NCBI GenBank assembly: GCA_005116835.1 | Contig: SWDM01000018.1 | Coordinates: 427,993-491,992, forward strand | Direction of reading: 5' to 3' | From: Nitrospira sp. | Lineage (GTDB): Bacteria > Nitrospirota > Nitrospiria > Nitrospirales > Nitrospiraceae | DNA: 64,000 nucleotides | In this document: positions 43,276 through 54,601 of the stretch, in pieces | Position numbering within the stretch: position 1 is the first letter of the stretch | Layout of the letters: every line of letters starts with the position of its first letter | Translations under genes and position numbers: made by a program | The notes under the pieces: generated by a model | Databases searched by the model: none | What the model saw: only the letters and a program-made list of their open reading frames with translations | Told to the model about the DNA's origin: nothing

Positions 43276-44655
43276 TCATTCCTCAGGATGGGGCTTGCCT
43301 TCGATTTCGGCGAGTTTACGATACAGGGTTTTCCGGTCGATGCCAAGGGCGTGGGCGGCCTGATATTTATTGCCGCCGGTCTTCTCGAGAATCTTGAGAA
43401 TATATTCTTTCTCCACTTCGTCCAGCCGCAGGGTCCGTTCAGCTGCGTCGTCGAGCACGCGGCGATCGCCGCGGGACCCCTGGATCGTCGCGGGCAAATC
43501 GTCGGGAACGATCTTCTCGCTCCGGCTGAGCGTGACGGCCCGCTCGATCACATTCTCCAATTCCCGCACGTTGCCGGGCCAGGCGTAATCCACCAGCATC
43601 GACAGGGCGGATTCGCTCACCCCCTGTATCTGTTTCCCGCGAGAGGCCGCGCACTTCTTCATGAACGAATCCACAAGCAATAGAATGTCTTCTCGGCGCT
43701 CACGTAAGGGCGGAAGGCGCAGTTCGATCACGTTGAGCCGGTAATACAAGTCTTCCCGGAAGCGCTTCGCCTTGACCTCTTCCGTCAAGTGCAGGTTCGT
43801 CGCCGCAATGATGCGGACATCGACGGGGGTCGGTCTGTTGGCCCCCACGCGGCGAATCTCTTTCTCCTGGATCGCGCGCAGAATTTTGGCCTGCAACATC
43901 AGCGGCAGTTCGCTGATCTCGTCGAGGAACAGCGTGCCCTTCTGTGCTTCTTCGAAGAGACCACGCTTGTCCGCCTTCGCATCCGTGAAGGCGCCTCTCA
44001 TATGGCCGAACAGCTCGCTTTCGAGCAGCTGCTCCGGAATGGCGGCACAGTTGACGGGGATAAAAGGGGCATCCTTGCGATCGCTATTATAATGGATCGC
44101 CTTGGCCACCAACTCCTTACCGGTTCCGCTCTCGCCGGTGATCAAGAGGTTCGTCGGGCTGTCCGCCACGCGCCGGATCAGGTCGAAGATCTCCTGCATC
44201 GGTTTGCTCTTGCCGATGATCTGATGAAAACTGTACTCCTTGTGGACTTCGCGTCGTAGCCTGTTCACCTCGCGCCGTAACGATGCTTCGCGGATCACAC
44301 GCTCGACGACGCGAACCAACTCGTCGTTTTTCACCGGCTTGGTCAAGTAGTCGCTGGCGCCTCGCTTCATGGCCTCGACCGCGGTATCCACCGACCCGAA
44401 GCCTGTCATGAGGATGACCCCGATGTCCGGATAGAGACGTTTGATCTCCACCAGCAACTCCGTGCCCTGCATCCCTTTCATCCGCAAATCCGTCAACACG
44501 ACGGCATAGTCTTGCTCGGCCAACACCTTCAAGGCCTCTTGTCCGCTCCCTGCTGCCGTGACCTGATGCCCGCGATCCTTGAACACATCGTGGACCAGTT
44601 CCCGCATTTCAGCATCGTCATCGACGACGAGAATCGCGCCCCAATCTTCAGTCAT
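43276..44655 (-). CDS. NtrC-family response regulator with GAFTDA loop
   Basis: A 459-residue protein: receiver domain (phosphoacceptor Asp in VVLTDLRMKGMQG), sigma54 AAA+ domain (Walker A GESGTGKE; Walker B TLFLDEISE) and Fis-type helix-turn-helix (GGNKYQAAHALGIDRKTLYRKL). The sigma54-contact loop reads GAFTDA instead of GAFTGA. AAGGAG precedes the ATG. It lies upstream of the PAS histidine kinase gene, forming a two-component pair. Its target promoters are not evident. Confidence 0.9.
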   Translation of the reverse strand: MTEDWGAILVVDDDAEMRELVHDVFKDRGHQVTAAGSGQEALKVLAEQDYAVVLTDLRMKGMQGTELLVEIKRLYPDIGVILMTGFGSVDTAVEAMKRGASDYLTKPVKNDELVRVVERVIREASLRREVNRLRREVHKEYSFHQIIGKSKPMQEIFDLIRRVADSPTNLLITGESGTGKELVAKAIHYNSDRKDAPFIPVNCAAIPEQLLESELFGHMRGAFTDAKADKRGLFEEAQKGTLFLDEISELPLMLQAKILRAIQEKEIRRVGANRPTPVDVRIIAATNLHLTEEVKAKRFREDLYYRLNVIELRLPPLRERREDILLLVDSFMKKCAASRGKQIQGVSESALSMLVDYAWPGNVRELENVIERAVTLSRSEKIVPDDLPATIQGSRGDRRVLDDAAERTLRLDEVEKEYILKILEKTGGNKYQAAHALGIDRKTLYRKLAEIEGKPHPEE

Positions 44656-44672
44656 GCCGCACTCCTTCTCTG

Positions 44673-44777
44673 AACTGGTTCATCTGGTTGATCTCGTTTA
44701 TTTGGTTTGTTTTGTTTGTTTGGTTGAATCAAATTAACCAAATGAACCAAATCAACCAGATAAACCAAACAAACCAG
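44673..44777. repeat. R1 inverted repeat
   Basis: Left arm TGGTTCATCTGGTTGATCTC and TTTGGTTTGTTTTG; right arm AACCAAATGAACCAAATCAACC, AGATAAACCAAAC. It lies 18 bp upstream of the NtrC-type gene start and is the only copy not directly 3' of an annotated gene. Confidence 0.75.
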
Positions 44778-44968
44778 AATGAGAGGCTAGCCCTTTGCCC
44801 TGGAAGGGGTCAAGGCTGCTCTGGCGCAAAAAGCCACAGACAACATTCCCATTTGGGGAGGAACGCCCCACTATTCGCCTATTACTGATAGTTTATCCGA
44901 CTAATGGGCATGGTTGTGCAAAGGCGGGACCATAGACCAGTGAACTATGGTGACTTACCTGAATTAAG

Positions 44969-45148
44969 GTGGGTCCGTACAAAGGATCAGGAGACACGAA
45001 GTTCTCCGGCACCGTCAACACGTATCTGGATTCGGACGGCTTGAAGTGGAAGCATCGATTCAACAGGTCCCCCGATAAAGACGAGTTAATTGGATTCGGG
45101 AGCAAAGGAACGAAAATCCTCGTCATCACTCTTGAGAACTTACGTTGA
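44969..45148 (+). pseudogene. Short coding-like remnant of unknown origin
   Basis: A GTG-started frame of 59 codons reads VGPYKGSGDTKFSGTVNTYL, then DSDGLKWKHRFNRSPDKDEL and ends VITLENLR. The codon pattern looks protein-like, but no ribosome-binding site or family is recognised. It is probably a fragment. The rest of 44778-45403 shows no gene. Confidence 0.3.
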
Positions 45149-45403
45149 ACCTCAAAGATGAGTGGACCAACCGGGCGACTGTTGGCCCACTGTGGTCTTC
45201 TCCTCCAACTGCATACGGTTGGACTCTCGACCTCAAGGGGGTACGTAAGAAATGAAAGACGGATGGGGACACTAAGAACCAGTCCCATGCCTCTCTCAGT
45301 CTACTATTTGCAGTCTGCTACAGTCTCCATTCGCCCATCACGTCGCTTTCCGGTGCGCTGAGCTGTGACGAACAACTCTGATACATGCCTCAACGACCGC
45401 TCT

Positions 45404-45444
45404 CGACCCTTAGCCGAAGTCCACGACCGACGGCTATCAGGTGG
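45404..45444 (+). repeat. 41-bp direct repeat, left copy flanking the NACHT region
   Basis: Begins CGACCCTTAGCCGAAGTCC and ends GGCTATCAGGTGG. It matches 51340-51380 at 38 of 41 positions, in the same orientation. The two copies bracket about 5.9 kb holding the nuclease-NACHT gene. Confidence 0.7.
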
Positions 45445-45978
45445 TCCAATCGAATGACGACGCCATCGGGATCCCACGGGGTGTAAAAGAAAGAACGTTC
45501 ACAGCAGCATTTGCGCTTTAAGTTAGTGCCGAAGGCTGGATTTGATTTGAGGCTAACTGAGCACCTTCAATGTTGGCGCGTATTTCACAGCTTCTGCGGC
45601 AGAAAGTCAACGACTTGTGCCATGTGAAGGAGTGAGATCGAGTGCGACAGAATGATCGGAAAGTAGCTCTGCTATACAACCGTTTTCGACCGCATTTTTT
45701 ATTTGCTTTCGAGTCCTGCCCGGCTCCCTGTCTCGTATTCTTTCGAACCATGCCATTTGAGATTTTCAGGAGACCAATAGTCAATAAGTAATCCTGCAGA
45801 TGTAAGGCTAGGCAAGCCATTAGACTTGCGCAGTAACGGGCTTCTCCTCTCCCGATAAATCCTTGGAGTGGACATGTTATAGCTAGTTGGGTAGCTTGAC
45901 ACTTCGGCATGTGTGGCATAGCCTTTCCGAGCCTTATATCCTGATTCGCTAGCAGTATTCCCTCACGAAGAAGGACCC
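45445..45978. other. Intergenic region upstream of the NACHT gene
   Basis: No convincing gene is seen. A 169-codon open frame on the minus strand overlaps the NACHT start and has no coding character. The promoter of the NACHT gene should lie here; AAGGA precedes its ATG. Confidence 0.5.
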
Positions 45979-48900
45979 ATGAGCCAGCCCATAACTCCTC
46001 TTCCCAGTTGGCTTGATACCCCTCCAAATAGCGAAGTCCTTCCTCCAGTTGAGACGAAAGCGCAGGACTTACCTTTCGACTGCCTTTCCTGGGAAGACTT
46101 TCAGAGACTCTGTCTTCGGCTGGTAAGGTTCGAGGCCAATGTAGAACATTGCCAGACCTATGGAACGCCTGGTCAAAAACAAGAAGGTATAGACCTATTC
46201 GCTCGTCAAAAGTTATCTGAGAAGTACAGGGTATACCAGTGTAAGAGGGTTGAGGATTTTGGTCCTGCAGATATCAAGAAGGCTGTCGAAGAATTTCTTG
46301 AAGGAAACTGGGTCGATCGAACAGAACTGTTCGTGTTGTGTACTCAAGACACTTTGGTGCCGACGAAGAAGGCCGAAGAGATAGAAGCGCAAAATAAGGT
46401 CTTGAAGGCCAAAGGAATTACTCTAATTCCGTGGGGAGCCGAGGAGTTATCAGCTAGCCTTAAATCACATCCGGAAGTGGTAAATGACTTTTTCAGTAGA
46501 GAGTGGGTAAAGAAATTCATCGGTGAAGAAGCTGCTGCACTACTGGGGAAGAGACTCGACGCTGGGCAAGTTAGAGAATATCGAATTCGATGTAAGCAGC
46601 TCTATTCCAATGTTTTTGAGAACCATGACCCTGGGATTCCTTCGGCGCAGATTCCAGCCACTTCCAATCTTCCACTAATTTCTCGCTTCGTTGTTCCTGA
46701 TATCTACGATTGGCAATGGGTGCCAAGTCAGTCTGTATCCGAAAGTGAAGAGCCGAAGCCTCCTGTGGATCTGGGAGAATCGAGCCTCCCCTCACTCTCC
46801 GATGGACACACATCCTCCGTGGCAAGGACACAAAAAAAGCCTGAAGCCATGCAGTACCAACAGCGAGTTACCCTGGAGGAGTGGATTTCTAAAGGAGATT
46901 GCCATGTAGTGTTAGGTGGGCCAGGAGCAGGGAAAAGTGCATTGTTGAGATACATCGCCATTCAATTGTTGAGCGAGTCGCCTAGCGTCCCTAGGTTGCA
47001 AGAGAAATGGGGTAACCGTTTGCCGATTTGGATCCCATTTGCCCTATGGACGAAAATCATATCTTCTTCTCCTTCAGGAGAAGGGTCTCTGGGAGACGCG
47101 GTTCAGCAATGGTTAAAGACTTGGAATGAACTGCGTTTGTGGCCAATCTTTGAACAAGCCATTGATGATGAGCGAGTCTTGTTGCTGGTAGATGGATTAG
47201 ATGAGTGGACTAACGAATCTGCCGGAAAGATAGCGCTGGATAGGCTTCAAGTCTTTGTTCGTCAAAGAAAAGTGGGAGCAATAGTGACTAGTAGGCCACA
47301 TGGCTATAAGCGTCTTGGCATGCAAAGGGATGGCTGGCAGGTCGGGGAATTGTGCGAATTATCGGTTGCTCAGCAGAAAGAACTCGCTACGATTTGGTTT
47401 ACTCAGAAGGTTGCCACATCTAGCTCTGGATTGGAAAGAGAGGAAATTAATCGGCTTGCTTTGTTTGAGAGTGCAGGTTTCATGGAGCAATTGGGTAGAT
47501 CTTCTGATTTGAGCGAACTAGCAAAGCTTCCAATGCTTATTTGCCTTCTTATTTTTCTGCGCTTCCAGAACGCGCATTTGCCACAAAGTCGCTTTAAAGC
47601 TTACGGGCAAATCGTGGACCACTTGATCTTAGTACATCCAAAGAAAAGACAAACGGCAGCGTCAATTACTTCTAGTGAAGGAGAGCTTTCTGATGAAGAC
47701 CTGAAAGGGCTTTTGGCTTATCTAGCGCTGGAAATTCATGAGAAACACAGTGAAGGGCTAGTGGATAAGAAGATTGCTGAGGAAATCTTGAGGGAGCGTA
47801 TTGAACAGGACTTTGGCTTTGATAGACCCAAGGCGATTGCATTGGGAAGATATGCAATCCAGACAAGCGAGAATGCTGTCGGACTTATTGTTGCTAAGTC
47901 TCCAATGGAACTGGGCTTTCTGCATAGAACGTTTCAGGAATACCTTGCGGCCTGGGGGTTGTCTACAATGCCCTATGCGGTGATTTCTGAAAAGATTGAA
48001 GCGCACTGCGCAGACTATCAGTGGCATGAGGTTATATTCGCCCTTCTGATACTCACTCCTCGAACTGAGGATGTAGACAGTCTTCTCAAGAAAATAAGCG
48101 AGAAGAGGACTGCAGCCATCACCATTGACCGGTACGCAATCGATCGCCTGCTTTATGATTCGGCTCTAGTTCACTCGAAGTGTTCTATCGAATTTGCTAA
48201 CACAGTGGCGCTAGAGGCATTCAAGACTATCGAATCAGGGTCATGGAAGCCTCACCGGTTGCGCGTTGTGCGAACTGTGGTAGACGGATTGCGCCAGCCT
48301 AGATTGAGGAATGTGATTGTAAGAAAACTGCGAAGTTGGTATCCAGCCAGGCAATGGTCTAGGGCGAGCGTGTTTAATGGGATGGCTGGCTGGAAAAGGG
48401 ATAGAGAGATCATCGCGTGCCTTGAGAGAGGGTTGCTTGATGAGATGGGATTTAATCAGAGAGCAGCGGCAACTGCCATTGCTCGCGTTGGAAGAGGAGA
48501 CCATGAGATTGGAGAGAAGGTCGCAGTCTTGTCTAAGGTTACAGAGAGTCCGAGTGCCAGAGCAGCAGCTATCGAAGCTCTGATTCGAGGCTGGCCTGCT
48601 CATAGTAGCCTGGAGGCTATTCTTTCCAACGGTGTCCAATCACTAAGTCCTGAGATTCAGGCTGCTTCGCTGTACGGAAAGGTTAAGAAAGGACTTCATC
48701 TACCTGAGGACTTGAATCGTTTACTTGACCTGGGGAAGCAGCATTCAGGACTAGATCACAGTTGGAGAGAAATTGTCCATGAGGGAATCAAGTTGGGGTG
48801 GACTGGTTCGGCAGAAGTGAGAACACTCTGCTTTCGTTCGCTGGAACGTCATGGCTATCGTGATGATTCTCTGGAGAGAGAAATTGCCATCGGGCTCTTG

Positions 48901-50889
48901 CTGGAGTGCTATCCTCAGGATGAGGAGGTAGCTCAATACTGTGTAGGCGAAATTCAAAACGAACGGTATCCGTTTCTTGCTGCTGGGATGAGAAGTGACA
49001 TATGGAAATTAGTGGCCGTAAACTTTCGAGACCATCAAAATATTATTTCCGCCATTGATGCCTGGATTCCTCGTCAAGAATACCAGGAGCCAGATGTATC
49101 TGCTGCTGCTCTAGTCGGACGAACATCGATTGCCAAAGCCAAATTGCTGGCACTCAATAAAAACCATATCCCATTCTGGTCAGCCAAAGCCTTACTAGAC
49201 GGTTGGGGAATGTCTGATCCCAAAGTGTCAGCACTTCTTACTGGAATGGCATATGCGTCGGCAGCCGAAACATCCCAGATTGGTCATCTACTTCCACGTA
49301 TCGTAACCAACCCATCAGAGTGTAGAAGAAGGCTCCTGGAGGTACTCAAGGACCCGAGTTGTGAACGGCCAGATTTCGTCCTTCAAGGGTTGAGAGATCT
49401 TGGGAATACGCAAGGTGACAATGAAGCGATAGAAATTGTCCTTGAATGTCTCAAGAGGGATATAAAGTTTGGGTATCGGTATGGAGCGATGGCTAGTATC
49501 TTTGCAAATTTTTCACAGGATTTACGGGTGAGGGAGCTTGCCTTAAAGGAACTCGATGTGCATGAAGGCCAGTACGGTGCCATAGCTGCGGCCTATGCAG
49601 ATGATGCTGAAATCAGATCTAGAGTGATGGAAATTGCTTGCCCGCTACCCTCATATGTGCGCAAGCAAATCGTGGAGTCAGTTACCAGAGGATTAGGAGA
49701 CGAAAAGCTAGAACAATCTATTCTGGCGTTATATGACCTTGAGCATGAAGCGGATCTGAAAATTGCAAGTTCAATTGGCTTTCATGGAATCCTGAAAAGA
49801 ACACATTCTTCAATAGCAGAGCATCTAGACGATCTCAAGCGGACTTTGTTCTGCCTAGGCCCAGACTATGAAGAGCGAAGGCAGGGGGCATTTTGCGGCT
49901 TGGTGGTCCTTGGGGAGAGTGAGTATATCCGGACTGCTAGAGAGCCGTGGGAGAGAGCAAAACAATTTGAGGTGCCTATTAGGATACATGGAGAACCAAG
50001 TATCCCCTTCGTTCAGTTTCTTCTAGACAATTGGAAAGAATGCAAGTCGATAATTTTTAACGGAATCGACGAAGCAGATGAGGAGGCATTAGCAAATGTA
50101 TGGGAGGAGCTGTGTCTTATTGCTCATAGCTTTGAAGAGCCAAGAATAGAAGCGCTTCAGTTTCTTGAGAGTAGATCGGGCAAAACAGCCGGGCCAAATA
50201 TTCTTAGATTTGTAGCGAGAGCAAAGCCGAGGAGTAAGCTTCTCTTAGATCTCTGTATTTCTACTCTTATCAGACGCGATCAAAACCTTTACGGGCCAAC
50301 TCCTAAAGCTGCCGCAGAGTTGCTGGCAGATCATTTCGCGGGAGATGTTGAAGTCAAGAAGCTCATTCCTCCAGTGATTGATGCGCATCGTCGTCTGAAT
50401 TCATATGTGTTGATGGCTCTCAGTGAGGGATGGCCAGATAGTGAAGAGATCGCCATGGCTATGCAACTGCTTCGAGATCGTATGGAGCACATTAGCCCGG
50501 CGCCGTACTATGCAGTCGTATGCGCTAGGAGCAATACGGAGAAGGTTTTCATGTTGGTAATGGACGAATTAGCCAATGCTTTTCCTGGATATGGTTTGCG
50601 GCTTCAACTTCTAGTAAGGCCGTTGCTACGAAGGATTCGAAAAGATGAGGGATTAGCCGTTATGCTGAAGAAGCGTTTGTTCGCCGATCCCACACCCTCA
50701 GAAAAGTCATCCATATCGCGTCTTCTCGCGGCGAGTCAGGGGGTTTCAAAGGATGTAAGAGATTGGTGTATGGAGGAACTTAATCGACAGGTTCGCGAGG
50801 GTGTTATTCCGGAGCTCGGGGCTGATCTTTTCGAAGGGACACTACGTCCAGTAAGGCATTCTCTCTTGGATGTGCTTGCTGACCGATAG
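45979..50889 (+). CDS. Nuclease-NACHT STAND NTPase with long helical-repeat region; candidate phage-defence protein
   Basis: A 1636-residue protein. Residues about 30-190 form a restriction-endonuclease-like domain with E39, D72 (EGIDLF) and Q87-C-K89 (VYQCKR), a PD-(D/E)XK/Mrr-type pattern. A NACHT NTPase follows: Walker A GGPGAGKS (near 313), Walker B VLLLVDGLDEW (near 404), VTSRPHGY, and LHRTFQEYLAAW (near 650). The remaining 950 residues are helical repeats (HEAT-like), the likely sensor. This is the plan of bacterial NLR-like defence proteins such as bNACHT and Avs. Codon use is A/T-rich compared with neighbours, and 41-bp repeats flank it, so it was probably acquired. Confidence 0.8.
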   Translation: MSQPITPLPSWLDTPPNSEVLPPVETKAQDLPFDCLSWEDFQRLCLRLVRFEANVEHCQTYGTPGQKQEGIDLFARQKLSEKYRVYQCKRVEDFGPADIKKAVEEFLEGNWVDRTELFVLCTQDTLVPTKKAEEIEAQNKVLKAKGITLIPWGAEELSASLKSHPEVVNDFFSREWVKKFIGEEAAALLGKRLDAGQVREYRIRCKQLYSNVFENHDPGIPSAQIPATSNLPLISRFVVPDIYDWQWVPSQSVSESEEPKPPVDLGESSLPSLSDGHTSSVARTQKKPEAMQYQQRVTLEEWISKGDCHVVLGGPGAGKSALLRYIAIQLLSESPSVPRLQEKWGNRLPIWIPFALWTKIISSSPSGEGSLGDAVQQWLKTWNELRLWPIFEQAIDDERVLLLVDGLDEWTNESAGKIALDRLQVFVRQRKVGAIVTSRPHGYKRLGMQRDGWQVGELCELSVAQQKELATIWFTQKVATSSSGLEREEINRLALFESAGFMEQLGRSSDLSELAKLPMLICLLIFLRFQNAHLPQSRFKAYGQIVDHLILVHPKKRQTAASITSSEGELSDEDLKGLLAYLALEIHEKHSEGLVDKKIAEEILRERIEQDFGFDRPKAIALGRYAIQTSENAVGLIVAKSPMELGFLHRTFQEYLAAWGLSTMPYAVISEKIEAHCADYQWHEVIFALLILTPRTEDVDSLLKKISEKRTAAITIDRYAIDRLLYDSALVHSKCSIEFANTVALEAFKTIESGSWKPHRLRVVRTVVDGLRQPRLRNVIVRKLRSWYPARQWSRASVFNGMAGWKRDREIIACLERGLLDEMGFNQRAAATAIARVGRGDHEIGEKVAVLSKVTESPSARAAAIEALIRGWPAHSSLEAILSNGVQSLSPEIQAASLYGKVKKGLHLPEDLNRLLDLGKQHSGLDHSWREIVHEGIKLGWTGSAEVRTLCFRSLERHGYRDDSLEREIAIGLLLECYPQDEEVAQYCVGEIQNERYPFLAAGMRSDIWKLVAVNFRDHQNIISAIDAWIPRQEYQEPDVSAAALVGRTSIAKAKLLALNKNHIPFWSAKALLDGWGMSDPKVSALLTGMAYASAAETSQIGHLLPRIVTNPSECRRRLLEVLKDPSCERPDFVLQGLRDLGNTQGDNEAIEIVLECLKRDIKFGYRYGAMASIFANFSQDLRVRELALKELDVHEGQYGAIAAAYADDAEIRSRVMEIACPLPSYVRKQIVESVTRGLGDEKLEQSILALYDLEHEADLKIASSIGFHGILKRTHSSIAEHLDDLKRTLFCLGPDYEERRQGAFCGLVVLGESEYIRTAREPWERAKQFEVPIRIHGEPSIPFVQFLLDNWKECKSIIFNGIDEADEEALANVWEELCLIAHSFEEPRIEALQFLESRSGKTAGPNILRFVARAKPRSKLLLDLCISTLIRRDQNLYGPTPKAAAELLADHFAGDVEVKKLIPPVIDAHRRLNSYVLMALSEGWPDSEEIAMAMQLLRDRMEHISPAPYYAVVCARSNTEKVFMLVMDELANAFPGYGLRLQLLVRPLLRRIRKDEGLAVMLKKRLFADPTPSEKSSISRLLAASQGVSKDVRDWCMEELNRQVREGVIPELGADLFEGTLRPVRHSLLDVLADR

Positions 50890-50895
50890 CTTGGG

Positions 50896-51033
50896 TCATT
50901 GCTTCAAGATTACACGATGGAAAATGAAGTTGGGTTGATTCACGGTCTTTGTAATGGCTCTCAGGTATAGAACCCTTTCAGTGATGCCTAAGGCGAGCAG
51001 AATTCCGAGCGGCTTAACTTCCCAGACCTTCAT
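50896..51033 (-). CDS. Possible small protein, unknown
   Basis: A 45-codon frame, MKVWEVKPLGILLALGIT and onward, is preceded by GGAGGGAACACG, a good ribosome-binding site. No family is recognised. It may be a truncated 5' end of a lost gene at the edge of the acquired segment. Confidence 0.35.
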   Translation of the reverse strand: MKVWEVKPLGILLALGITERVLYLRAITKTVNQPNFIFHRVILKQ

Positions 51034-51339
51034 CGTGTTCCCTCCGTATTGATTCCGGTCGTCGATGCCTGTTGTTTTGAAATCATCTGATTTCTGGACG
51101 GTGGAAGTCGAGTTCTTGGTCACATGAGTTCGAGAACTTACGGGAAGATATTTGGGCAGGTGTGGTGGCACCGACACGCGTGCGAGGTACCTGTTCTACG
51201 AACCTTTCCCAGCCGACTCAGGCCCACTCCAGCCAAGCGTAGCGCGAAGCGAGCACCATCTCTAATGGCCGGCAGCTTTCCGGCGCGAAGATTGCCGTAG
51301 CGACTGTCGCAAAGTGGCCGTTCTGCGACGGTCGGTATC
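51034..51339. other. Intergenic, no gene seen
   Basis: No convincing gene. The stretch AAGTGGCCGTTCTGCGACG just before the right 41-bp repeat looks like part of a longer repeat unit, but its boundaries cannot be set from one copy. Confidence 0.4.
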
Positions 51340-51380
51340 CGACCCTTAGCCGAAGTCCACAACCGACCGCTATCAGGAGG
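51340..51380 (+). repeat. 41-bp direct repeat, right copy
   Basis: Begins CGACCCTTAGCCGAAGTCC and ends CGCTATCAGGAGG; three differences from the left copy at 45404-45444. Confidence 0.7.
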
Positions 51381-51533
51381 AGGGAGTCTTACGCCGACCC
51401 GCATAAGAACCCGTGGTAATTGGTCCTACCGTGGCAACTCATTGAAACGACACCGGGCATGGCGTATTCTTCCCGACCTGTTGTGGCGTGTTATGCGGAC
51501 AGAAATTGGCAGATCCGGTTCTTATACGGATCG

Positions 51534-51604
51534 GCCTAAACATCCCTTTTGCTTGCGCAAAAGCCACGCCATTGCGCTTTGGCTCTTGAACAAAGGCGTT
51601 AGAC
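51534..51604 (+). other. Probable integron attC-like site (upstream)
   Basis: Starts with GCCTAAA and ends with GTTAGAC, close to the RYYYAAC and GTTRRRY ends of attC sites, with an internal palindrome TTTTGCTTGCGCAAAA. It directly precedes a cassette-sized gene. A weaker pair, GCATAAG (51401) and GTTATGC (51490), could be an older site before it. Confidence 0.5.
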
Positions 51605-51620
51605 ATCATCAAGAACCTTC

Positions 51621-52082
51621 ATGCCTTCACTCGAGCATAAGATTCCTCCGCCCGTTGTTGGCGCGCTCGTCGCAGGGGCGATGTGGTGGGTCTCTTCGCT
51701 GGGGTCTCTGTCCACTGTCGCCACTGGACTTCGCCACGTAGCCGTTGCACTTCTTATCACCGCCGGCGTTGCCTTCGACGTACTCGGCCTCCTGGCCTTT
51801 CGAGCCTCTCGCACAACCATCAATCCACTCAAGCCAGAGCGTGCCTCGGCTCTGGTCACAGGTGGCGTGTATCAGGTCACCCGGAATCCCATGTACGTCG
51901 GCATGGCCCTTCTCCTGCTGGCTTGGGCGGTCTACCTGTCGGCGCTTTTGTCCTTCGCTGGTCCAGTCATCTTTATCCTGTACATCACTCGCTTCCAAAT
52001 CCAACCAGAGGAGCGCGCGCTCCAGGGAATCTTTGGAGAGGAGTTCGCGGCCTATGCTGCCCGCGTGAGACGGTGGCTGTGA
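51621..52082 (+). CDS. Isoprenylcysteine carboxyl methyltransferase-family membrane protein (cassette gene)
   Basis: A 153-residue protein with four hydrophobic segments and the C-terminal signature VTRNPMYVGMALLLLAWAVYL...EERALQGIFGEEFAAYAARVRRW, typical of ICMT/PEMT-like small membrane methyltransferases. It probably methylates a lipid or small molecule; the substrate is unknown. It starts 17 bp after the GTTAGAC core and ends 2 bp before a second attC-like site, the compact layout of an integron gene cassette. Genes of this family are often seen as cassettes (from memory). Confidence 0.8.
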   Translation: MPSLEHKIPPPVVGALVAGAMWWVSSLGSLSTVATGLRHVAVALLITAGVAFDVLGLLAFRASRTTINPLKPERASALVTGGVYQVTRNPMYVGMALLLLAWAVYLSALLSFAGPVIFILYITRFQIQPEERALQGIFGEEFAAYAARVRRWL

Positions 52083-52083
52083 T

Positions 52084-52141
52084 GCCTAACCCATCAATCC
52101 AGCAGACCGCCTCCGGCGGCCTCTGATTTCAAACGTTAATG
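52084..52141 (+). other. Integron attC-like site (downstream)
   Basis: Begins GCCTAACCCATCAATCCAG, has a central GACCGCCTCCGGCGGCC palindrome and ends TTTCAAACGTTAATG. The last core is GTTAATG where GTTAGGC would be expected, so the site is slightly degraded. Length 58 bp fits known attC sites. Confidence 0.65.
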
Positions 52142-52575
52142 CGACAGGGCTGAGGACCGCTTTATGGCGGTGCGACCTCGGCGCCGAACTTCCGCACTTG
52201 GCCGTAAGCGGACCTTTGGCTTCGAGCGCGACCGCCCAAAAGTTCCATCACTGGCGACCTGGGTTCGGATTTACACCGCTACGTTCTGAAATCATACGAA
52301 AGGATTCTTTCTTCTCAGAAATTTCACCATTCCCCCCCTGGCCCTTGCGCCTCCTTCGCCACCCCCCTTCAATACCCCCTCCCTGCGCGGCCCCTATGCG
52401 CTTCTCGACCTGCTTGTCATGTTCAAAGAGGTCTTGGGCCGGCATCGTAGCGCGGTCGCTCGCCTCGGCTGCGCATGTGTCAGACGATGCCTTGATCTCT
52501 GCACGGGCACGACCGAAGGACCACAGCATGTCAGGCACCACACTGCGCAGACAACTGAACCAAGGACATCGCGTT
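52142..52575. other. Intergenic, no gene seen
   Basis: An open frame continuous with the Slp gene runs through here, but it lacks family features and a ribosome-binding site. No repeats or RNA genes are recognised. Confidence 0.45.
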
Positions 52576-53067
52576 ATGACTCCGTACGGTTGGCTTCAAC
52601 GGTGGTCTGAGTGCCTTACAATGGCCATCACCATGACCGTAGTCCTTAGTGGATGCGCCAATGTGCCACGCCATTATGTGCGGATGGCAGAGCCTGGCAC
52701 TACGCTCACCGCGCTGACCGCCCATCCGGAGATGTATCGCGGGAAGGTGGTGCTATTGGGGGGAACGATCATTGAAGAAGAACTGGACCGAGATTATAAA
52801 CCCCATCGTCCCGCGGACATGAATGGTCCCGAAGCTGGATCCTATTGGGTGGTGGTGGCAAAGCAACAACTCCCAAGCCTGTATCGGCAGTAGGCGCGAA
52901 TAACGGTGGTCGGACAAGTCACGGGCACGCAGCGATTCAAGACCGAACCGGTGCTCTCGCTCCTCTACGTGCGAGGTTGGGGGATAAACGAGGCTCATCA
53001 CGGGGTCTGGGAGAATGTTAATCCTAATTATATCTTCTCAACTCCGGGAGGCATCAAAAAGAATTAG
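52576..53067 (+). pseudogene. Slp-family outer membrane lipoprotein gene with in-frame TAG
   Basis: The frame begins MTPYGWLQRW, has a lipobox (VVLSGCAN) and the Slp-type sequence HPEMYRGKVVLLGGTII. It stops at TAG (52891-52893) after LPSLYRQ but continues in the same frame with ARITVVGQVTGTQRFKTEPV and a normal-looking end GGIKKN-TAG at 53067. The first part alone (106 residues) lacks the final strands of the Slp domain. One base change would restore the gene. Slp proteins are starvation-linked lipoproteins of unclear role. Confidence 0.75.
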
Positions 53068-53148
53068 GTGGGAATCTGCCGTAGCCCGCATTATTCACGA
53101 GATCGCTATGGATCATCCCTTCAAACATTCATAGCAATTCGACACCAG

Positions 53149-53292
53149 CTAGGCCTTGGTGTTCTGGATGCTGAGAACGCCCGTAAACAAACCGACATAG
53201 TGATCTATGGCATGGACGCTGGTGAGATCCTTCGTTTCGAGGCGGTAGCCTGGCATCGAAGCAGGCAGGCTCGCCATTTGGTCGGTCAACAC
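53149..53292 (-). pseudogene. Coding-like C-terminal remnant, unknown family
   Basis: A 47-codon frame reads VLTDQMASLPASMPGYRLET, then KDLTSVHAIDHYVGLFTGVL and stops. The sequence looks protein-like, but there is a stop just upstream and no ribosome-binding site. It may be the end of a decayed gene. Confidence 0.3.
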
Positions 53293-53357
53293 ACTGATTC
53301 ACGTATGCCTCCCTCCCGTCGTAGGCTCGGTTCTGAATCCTGCCTCGCCCACTCCAC

Positions 53358-53440
53358 CAAAGGGGGCCAGCCCCCTTGGAGAATCCCCACGAAGGGGGCA
53401 CACCCCTTTCGTCACTCCCAGGCGAGGAAGCCTCGCCTCA
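53358..53440. repeat. Cluster of three short G/C-rich hairpins
   Basis: Three palindromes in a row: AAGGGGGCCAGCCCCCTT, GAAGGGGGCACACCCCTTTC and AGGCGAGGAAGCCTCGCCT. They could be terminators or REP-type elements between the Slp remnant and the small genes downstream. Confidence 0.55.
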
Positions 53441-53542
53441 CGGCTCCGCGCGCCTTTCTCGCATGACGACTGCGTGGTTCCGCCACGAACAGTCGTAAAT
53501 AATGCAGGTTAAAGACATCCTGCCGAAGGTTCGTCCCCCTCT

Positions 53543-53567
53543 TTAGGGTAGGTTGACCTACCTCTAA
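53543..53567. promoter_or_regulatory. Palindromic operator-like site GGTAGGTTGACCTACC
   Basis: A perfect 16-bp palindrome, apart from the TG centre, extended by TTAG/CTAA arms. It lies 90 bp before the zinc-ribbon gene start. It could bind a dimeric repressor. Confidence 0.45.
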
Positions 53568-53656
53568 GGTATTTTCAAAAATTTTGCCCTGGCTCAATAT
53601 CAGCATCAGTCGAACGAACCAGGCGCCAAGGGCATCATTTCTTGAAGGAGAGACCG

Positions 53657-53857
53657 ATGCACAATCAGATTGGGAAAATTGGGGCAATTCGTCGAATCTT
53701 AGACGGTAAAGCCTGTCCCTTCTGTCAATGCAAAAAGTATCAGCTCGTGCTTCGAGGGGACATGCTGCCCCAAGCCGGAGGACTCTTTGCCCGCTGTTCT
53801 CAGTGCCAGCGCCCGCGCGGACTCGATGAAGATATCGGACAGATACTCTGGATGTAA
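53657..53857 (+). CDS. Small zinc-ribbon-like protein
   Basis: A 66-residue protein with two Cys pairs, CPFCQC and ARCSQC, spaced like a zinc ribbon. AAGGAGAGACCG precedes the ATG. The function is unknown. The next small gene follows 39 bp downstream and may be cotranscribed. Confidence 0.6.
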   Translation: MHNQIGKIGAIRRILDGKACPFCQCKKYQLVLRGDMLPQAGGLFARCSQCQRPRGLDEDIGQILWM

Positions 53858-53896
53858 GAACATTTTCTCATCCGCTCGGCAGGGAAGGAACGTACG

Positions 53897-54226
53897 ATGC
53901 AGGCATTCTCGTCACTGATGCAATACCTCAAGTATCTCCAGGTGCGGAGAGCGCGCAAAAAACAGAAGCTCACCGCGTTGCTCATGTTGGCACACAGCGG
54001 CGTCGTCAGACCCGGCCATATTGAACTTCATTACCTGACACCGACCACCCGCAGTACCGCATCCCGTTCCCAACCTGCTTCGATCGGGCTTCCGCTGATT
54101 CACACGATCCCTTTTCGGTCAGTGGAGCAAGAACCTGCGCAGACACCGCAATGGGCGCGCAGCATCACGTCCTCCATCGACCACCTTTTGGAACACCGGC
54201 CAAAACTGTCTGGAACGGGTGGCTAA
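53897..54226 (+). CDS. Hypothetical protein
   Basis: A 109-residue protein, basic near the N-terminus (VRRARKKQKLTALL), with no recognised domain. GGAAGGAACGTACG before the ATG supports translation. It may be cotranscribed with the zinc-ribbon gene upstream. Confidence 0.5.
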   Translation: MQAFSSLMQYLKYLQVRRARKKQKLTALLMLAHSGVVRPGHIELHYLTPTTRSTASRSQPASIGLPLIHTIPFRSVEQEPAQTPQWARSITSSIDHLLEHRPKLSGTGG

Positions 54227-54397
54227 CGCCTGAGAGTGCCTCCCTGCCTCTCTCCGAGAGTTTTTTCGGCTCACCTTGCGAATCGCTTGTACCTCTCACA
54301 TAGCCTGGGGTAAGATCACCGCTCGATTGCTGGTCTTCCTAGGGTCATCGACCTCTGTCGCAGATCATCGGGAACCCCGCATAGAGCTGTGATCCGT

Positions 54398-54489
54398 GGA
54401 GAGGTGGCCGAGCGGCCGAAGGCAGCAGTTTGCTAAACTGCCGTAGGGGGAAACTTCTACCGAGGGTTCAAATCCCTCCCTCTCCGCCA
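54398..54489 (+). tRNA. tRNA-Ser (GCU)
   Basis: The acceptor arm GGAGAGG pairs with CCTCTCC, and the 3' end GCCA is encoded. The anticodon stem GCAGT/ACTGC holds the loop TTGCTAA with anticodon GCT. A long variable arm (GTAGGGGGAAACTTCTAC) and GGTTCAAATCC T-arm are present, as expected for serine. Confidence 0.95.
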
Positions 54490-54494
54490 CAGCC

Positions 54495-54601
54495 TATCTG
54501 GTTCATTGGTTGCTTTGGTTTGTTTGGTTTATTTGGTTAGTTTCGTTCAACCAAAAACCAGACAAACTAAACAAACCAAATAAACCAGTAAACCAGTCAG
54601 A
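54495..54601. repeat. R1 inverted repeat
   Basis: Left arm TATCTGGTTCATTGG, TTTGGTTTGTTTGGTTTATT; centre TTAGTTTCGTTCAACC; right arm AACTAAACAAACCAAATAAACC. It begins 6 bp after the tRNA-Ser 3' end. Confidence 0.8.

Follow-up and report, generated by a model that had tools for sequence, protein, structure and literature searches.

Bacterial NLR-like proteins rely on one switch that is coupled to many sensors and effectors. Animal NLRs are made up with CARD or pyrin domains and leucine-rich repeats, the sensors of Avs1 to Avs4 are of the TPR type, and clades of bacterial NACHT proteins were reportedly defined in a 2023 survey. According to their published description (PMC12169576), bNACHT25 and bNACHT32 belong to bacterial NACHT clade 6 and are defence proteins that consist of PD-(D/E)XK, NACHT and NCH1 parts; the D48A substitution in their nuclease abolishes defence, infection triggers DNA degradation, and sensing or activation by bNACHT25 needs the host protein DnaJ. 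Because these PD-(D/E)XK-NACHT defence proteins are published, the plan of the Nitrospira protein studied here is less new than a first-pass annotation of its gene had implied.

The nuclease-NACHT-HEAT gene was called as an ORF at positions 45979..50889 (+ strand, ATG start, stop included) of the window, i.e. the whole stretch of 64,000 nucleotides that was analysed. It encodes 1636 aa, no internal stop interrupts the 1636 codons between the ATG at 45979 and the stop at 50889, and homologues start at about the same place. Directly 5' of the ATG, the purine-rich stretch AAGAAGGA (45968..45975, + strand, read directly) is a possible ribosome-binding site with short spacing. Scans for a gene-specific promoter or terminator gave counts no higher than in shuffles. 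The gene is present as a single copy in the 3.94-Mb genome.

Residues 1-190 (45979..46548, + strand) are likely a PD-(D/E)XK nuclease of the Mrr type, as judged from Pfam, PADLOC, hhalign and a structural model. In the query, Mrr_cat matched residues 36-109 under the Pfam cut-off (E 0.0034), and the PADLOC model LmuA gave a weak match (E 1.8e-4); among 12 aligned family members, Mrr_cat was found in five at E <= 0.01, all with weak scores (best 1.2e-4). Motif position and alignment identified D72 (codon 46192..46194, + strand) and the QxK of Q87-C88-K89 (46237..46245, + strand) as predicted catalytic residues. D72, Q87 and K89 were invariant in 7/7 aligned nuclease domains, and in P0014, a Streptomyces-family member, R replaces the catalytic K. 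When the nuclease profile was aligned with the Mrr domain of a type IV restriction enzyme, D and QxK came into register (hhalign E 2e-4, probability 46%), and a search of solved structures with the same profile returned chance-level matches only. The modelled domain (helix 38-52, strands 54-61, 70-76 and 83-89, helix 96-107, strand 115-122) has the predicted alpha-beta-beta-beta-alpha-beta order, which is that of the PD-(D/E)XK core. No recognition domain for modified DNA was found by Pfam in the query or the 12 members.

The same nuclease also heads proteins of other build: a 2170-aa TPR-HTH-PIN protein in genome G234, a 1365-aa TPR-PIN protein of Deinococcus gobiensis that adjoins a type I restriction system, a 1050-aa protein of Rhodococcus ruber with one weak TPR match, and a fourth protein, from Pseudomonas luteola, that matches no family. 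Such swapping between scaffolds would be expected of an effector. The 2170-aa protein lies at L082:7162-13674, and an ORF resembling an integrase precedes it by about 2 kb.

The NACHT NTPase core comprises residues 290-480 (46846..47418; Pfam, alignment and model), with the Walker A motif G316-A-G-K319-S320 at 46924..46938 and the Walker B motif DGLDE (D405-G-L-D408-E409, residues 405-409) at 47191..47205, both assigned by motif position and alignment. It is followed in residues 481-740 (47419..48198; alignment and model) by helical domain 1, a winged helix (GFLHRTFQEY, 646-655) and helical domain 2; all these features are on the + strand. The Pfam NACHT match of the query at 310-476 (E 3.7e-5, 24.0 bits) was just under the cut-off of 26.7, and NACHT was detected in 12/12 aligned members (best E 1.5e-12). 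Walker A, DGLDE, R439 and H649 were invariant across the 12 aligned members. H649 sits in a GFxH motif, and the histidine at that position holds ADP in animal NLRs. The statement of the first-pass annotation that all key nuclease and NTPase residues are intact was confirmed by the location of D72, Q87, K89 and both Walker motifs; its 'K318 region' does contain the Walker A lysine, but the exact residue is K319.

A model of residues 1-740, built from four sequences (mean pLDDT 70), was compared with known structures by VIA-align, and the matches cover residues 194-740 only, not the nuclease. Human NLRC4 (8fw2) matched this part with Z 21.7 and rmsd 6.2 over 414 residues, followed by NLRP3 (8ej4, Z 18.5) and NOD2 (5irn, Z 17.2). 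Foldseek, run with the model of 1-740, likewise placed NLRC4 first (E 7.0e-12), with Avs4 (8dgf) at rank 37 (E 2.0e-5); Avs chains were absent among the 50 VIA-align matches listed for the N-terminal model, which proves nothing. Residues 194-740 are thus modelled as a complete NACHT-HD1-WHD-HD2 module with an NLRC4-like fold. Because the NLRC4 match spans the winged helix and helical domain 2, the sensor starts near residue 741 and not at the end of the Pfam domain.

The remaining residues, ~741-1636 (48199..50886, + strand), are, as predicted from Pfam, profile and model, a HEAT-type alpha-solenoid, not a TPR array, and form the putative sensor. The query alone matched HEAT_2 with E 0.059 only; HEAT_2 was found in six of the 12 members at E <= 0.01 (best E 1e-6), and TPR was absent from the 16 Pfam families found in these members. 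Since NACHT was detected in 12/12, HEAT_2 in 6/12 and Mrr_cat in 5/12 members at E <= 0.01, the Pfam labels of the query are not due to chance. At residues ~795-892 the family profile matched alphaRep HEAT proteins, the best being a synthetic fusion (E 4.2e-9), then alphaRep itself (2.2e-7). Residues 690-1636, modelled from four sequences (mean pLDDT 67, below 50 at 1229-1320), form a chain of antiparallel helices; a single pair of strands lies close to its end. Fold searches with the solenoid returned importin beta, CAND1, Integrator and PP2A scaffolds with Z up to 12.8, a value that helical-repeat proteins reach even when unrelated and that is no evidence of importin-type kinship.

These results agree with the order of nuclease, NACHT and helical repeats proposed in the first-pass annotation, which is borne out by Pfam in 12 members, fold models and motif alignment. 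They also agree with its view that the repeats are not the TPR sensors of the Avs types, and the structure prediction and profile search of the C-terminus that it had proposed yielded the all-helical model and the alphaRep HEAT match. Its figure of about 950 residues of helical repeats was right as to their all-helical nature but too high: because the helical domains of the NACHT module reach ~740, the repeat part is nearer 900.

Within the solenoid, alignment conservation was best at residues 1065-1085 (49171..49233, + strand). The last 25 residues were considered as a strikingly conserved stretch and rejected, being slightly above the solenoid average (0.62 vs 0.44); two near-duplicate rows (P0011, P0013) were dropped for these conservation figures. 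GW dipeptides occur five times vs 0.95 expected (maximum 5 in 2000 shuffles), and their spacing (67, 69 and 135) would be compatible with HEAT repeats taken in pairs.

Base composition sets the gene apart from its surroundings, as had been noticed at first pass: its G+C is 0.476 vs 0.564 in the remaining window, and all lowest-G+C stretches of the gene's length in the window overlap it. At third positions, G+C is 0.44 vs 0.75 and 0.69 in two upstream genes. The nearest convincing genes are ~1.3 kb away on the upstream side, where transcription is divergent, and ~0.7 kb away on the other; upstream is a two-component pair of a PAS histidine kinase and a sigma-54 response regulator (Pfam), downstream a gene of the phospholipid methyltransferase type. 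The four small ORFs between the gene and these flanking genes match nothing in Pfam, and therefore the gene can be said to stand alone, again as first described. By Pfam, the only scan run on the window, no defence-type neighbours of this copy were detected.

The gene had further been described as lying between direct repeats. Such a pair exists (41 nt, 93% identical, at 45404 and 51340), but the role as element ends was rejected: four places in the genome match, both window copies counted, so that the pair belongs to a dispersed repeat and does not prove where an element ends. A clean empty site was not obtained in relatives. G026, the closest of them, aligns with both flanks (43294-44943 and 53535-54485), and what it has in between is unrelated DNA of about the same length; in the other 14 of the 15 regions the left flank aligns and, toward the right, short or scattered stretches only. 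The locus is therefore variable, and an insertion boundary cannot be given. Compared with L129, the window differs at 44943-53535, an interval bounded by the response-regulator gene and the tRNA-Ser region, in which the closest relative has other genes. A long imperfect palindrome of GGTTT/AAACC type is present at 44676-44767 and 54496-54588; as similar stretches recur in several same-genus regions, it is a genus-wide dispersed repeat. In the region 51594-52145, a GCCTAACCCATCAATCC...CGTTAATGC stretch behind the methyltransferase gene (51621-52082) resembles an integron attC site in look; no paired core sites were detected by a strict scan.

The family is rare but widespread across bacterial phyla. 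Whole-length copies were present in 2/61 relatives, own genome counted, and in 2/295 genomes of the phylum sample, a third genome having in each case the nuclease part only; none of 31 same-genus genomes had a full-length copy. Frequencies were similarly low in the order of Paraburkholderia (4/399 genomes, the centre itself counted) and the Streptomyces family (2/200), and in the class of Enterobacter mori 0/369 genomes had a full-length copy and one had a NACHT-only match. Copies on plasmids, full-length or interrupted, came from Deinococcus, Lysinibacillus, Enterobacter, Pantoea and Streptomyces. Searches outside the plasmid collection added Paraburkholderia, two viral contigs and G044 of the query's order, and further copies came from the Paraburkholderia order (three more genomes) and the Streptomyces family (two genomes). 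A single-protein scan of genome contigs gave no close relatives, phage records contained no relatives of the protein, and E. coli genomes searched with the DNA of the Enterobacter copy gave none; of the viral-contig scans, query A4 returned none, and A5 gave no contig beyond the one that A3 had detected before.

A tree of the NACHT region was calculated from 27 rows, namely the query, 14 other family loci and 12 distant NACHT relatives picked from 66 non-family loci. The 15 family rows formed one clade (support 100/99), and the settings of the 14 other loci are chromosomes and plasmids as well as contigs linked to an integrase or recombinase and one P4-like island. The sister of the query was the plasmid copy from Lysinibacillus (97/98); G044, which belongs to the order of the query, was not its sister and grouped, less surely, with the Enterobacter-Paraburkholderia pair (88/92). 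The position of the query therefore indicates transfer across phyla, and the window gene is real, intact and horizontally acquired.

Identity to the query (11 homologues; 10 for the nuclease, as one row is without it) was 36-48% for the nuclease, 31-45% for NACHT, 25-34% for the winged-helix part and 18-28, 17-30 and 14-28% for the three thirds of the solenoid, which diverges fastest. A kept effector and switch with a changing sensor would be expected of an arms-race sensor; loose constraint on the solenoid would look similar. Three family copies are interrupted: that of Deinococcus (L006) is split, that of Lysinibacillus (L009) is in ten pieces and that of G044 (L080) in two ORFs, which may reflect sequencing error or real loss.

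The neighbourhoods of relatives were studied by a PADLOC scan of 20 neighbour proteins, part of them picked by eye, at 10 family loci; the Deinococcus, Pantoea, Lysinibacillus, G044 and G469 loci were left out. Defence-type neighbours occurred at 6/10 scanned loci, a raw count without random-gene control. They comprise a type III restriction enzyme, NERD-UvrD and WYL in G724, a type IV restriction enzyme beside the Paraburkholderia copy, two ThsB TIR proteins, adjoined by an annotated CBASS phospholipase, at the Enterobacter copy, a GajA/OLD-like protein in G1238, a PD-T4-5/AbiD-like protein at the Streptomyces locus L010 and PDC-S02 in G1229. At the other four scanned loci (L098, L011, L146, L085), PADLOC detected no defence-type neighbour. 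The viral-contig copy L146 adjoins an integrase, and L085 is close to a serine recombinase. The Paraburkholderia copy was found with a D5/PriCT-2 primase and an integrase, which we read as a P4-like setting; P4-like satellites are described as known defence hotspots (PMC9122126).

Based on the three parts, the conserved residues, the NLRC4-like fold of the middle part, the fast-changing solenoid, the horizontal spread and the defence neighbours of several relatives, all of them observed, we consider the window protein to be, in all probability, an NLR-like immune sensor of the STAND/NACHT kind that is encoded by a single gene, is armed with a nuclease effector, senses phage infection and then cuts DNA. 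The single-gene defence system that the first-pass annotation had put forward as a candidate is supported by fold, family, tree and neighbourhood evidence. The long HEAT solenoid would hold the protein in an ADP-bound resting state until it is bound by a protein of the phage or by a host protein that infection has altered. By analogy to NLRC4, the NACHT-HD1-WHD-HD2 module may then exchange nucleotide and open, and the protein would oligomerise and bring its N-terminal Mrr-type nuclease domains together. Clustered nucleases would cut the DNA of the phage and probably of the host, and infection would be stopped or the cell killed. The protein may in this respect work like bNACHT25/32, the nearest tested proteins in plan. 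A more detailed picture is tentative, and as a whole we lean slightly against rather than toward it: the family would be a separate cross-phylum NLR clade in which an importin-like HEAT solenoid, instead of TPR or leucine-rich repeats, wraps a folded phage protein or infection-changed host protein; the NLRC4-type switch would signal to a nuclease module that is also plugged into TPR-PIN sensors; and the patch 1065-1085 would be a contact common to all members, made to the ligand or else to the NACHT of the same protein.

The same machine could be aimed mainly at plasmids, other mobile DNA or rival elements and not at phages. Many copies reside on plasmids or integrative elements, and such elements are often armed against rivals; however, plasmid copies were partly found because a plasmid collection was searched, several relatives have as neighbours genes of the restriction, CBASS or Thoeris type, whose targets are phages, and bNACHT25/32, the closest tested plan, act on phages (PMC12169576). 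We regard this target range as unlikely. The Mrr kind of nuclease, as in type IV restriction enzymes, might alternatively read foreign or modified DNA itself, with NACHT and HEAT parts serving assembly or regulation only. Such a restriction-like enzyme is very improbable, as a plain restriction enzyme does not need a NACHT module that matches NLRC4 through HD2, no DNA-recognition domain was seen by Pfam in the query and 12 members, and repeat scaffolds unrelated to the solenoid carry this nuclease as well.

Some STAND NTPases are transcription regulators, and the window neighbours are a two-component pair, both of which would suit a host STAND-type regulator or stress-response protein with no conflict role. 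The patchy presence (0/31 same-genus genomes full-length, 4/399 in the Paraburkholderia order, 2/200 in the Streptomyces family), the cross-phylum tree and the nuclease domain with its conserved residues argue against it and leave such a role only a very slight chance. We give equally little credence to a decaying, inactive relic of a defence gene: the three interrupted relatives, possibly sequencing errors, would fit, but the window copy is open throughout and every motif residue is intact.

With bNACHT25/32, the window protein shares a PD-(D/E)XK nuclease, a central NACHT and a C-terminal sensing part in one protein; those carry an NCH1 C-terminus, whereas the query family has the ~900-residue HEAT solenoid, a distinction by description and not by alignment. 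Pfam scans of the query and 12 members gave no line for NCH1 (presence of an NCH1 model in the library is unconfirmed). The Avs1-Avs4 proteins are alike in N-terminal nuclease, STAND NTPase, long helical repeat sensor and killing by DNA cleavage (in part after PMC12931631), but differ from the query family, in which Pfam found no TPR among 12 members, the repeats are HEAT repeats and the NTPase is recognised as NACHT in 12/12 members. The comparison with bNACHT and Avs families proposed at first pass was thus made by description for the former and with protein models for the latter: the query had no Avs match at E <= 1, and 3/12 members matched Avs2 weakly (best 2.1e-5).

The closest named NCBI model is EruA (NCBIfam NF058535, 'NACHT domain-containing antiphage protein'), for which we found no paper in the literature. 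A similar NACHT region was detected in 7/12 members at E <= 0.01, and the best-matching stretches of members are in the NACHT part; the model needs 1000 bits, however, and the query scored 17.7 and the best of six members listed singly 41.8. The Mrr catalytic domain that marks type IV (Mrr) enzymes is present with weak scores. The family was named by no model in PADLOC, NCBIfam or Pfam, and our literature searches found no title or abstract on proteins of nuclease-NACHT-HEAT architecture. The kind of protein is known; its HEAT-sensor family is without name or paper in the databases and literature searched. In having Walker A and a DGxDE-type Walker B, the order NBD-HD1-WHD-HD2, an N-terminal effector and a C-terminal putative sensor, the protein has the characters of NACHT (NLR-related, STAND) proteins. 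Plasmid-borne enterobacterial members make the question of the ligand directly testable in laboratory E. coli. Like the animal inflammasome NLRs NLRC4, NLRP3 and NOD2, the query has the NACHT-HD1-WHD-HD2 fold (194-740), but with a nuclease and a HEAT solenoid instead of their flanking domains, and a family that joins an NLRC4-type switch to a HEAT sensor, with members ranging from Deinococcus to Enterobacter, would introduce a sensing arm of a new kind.
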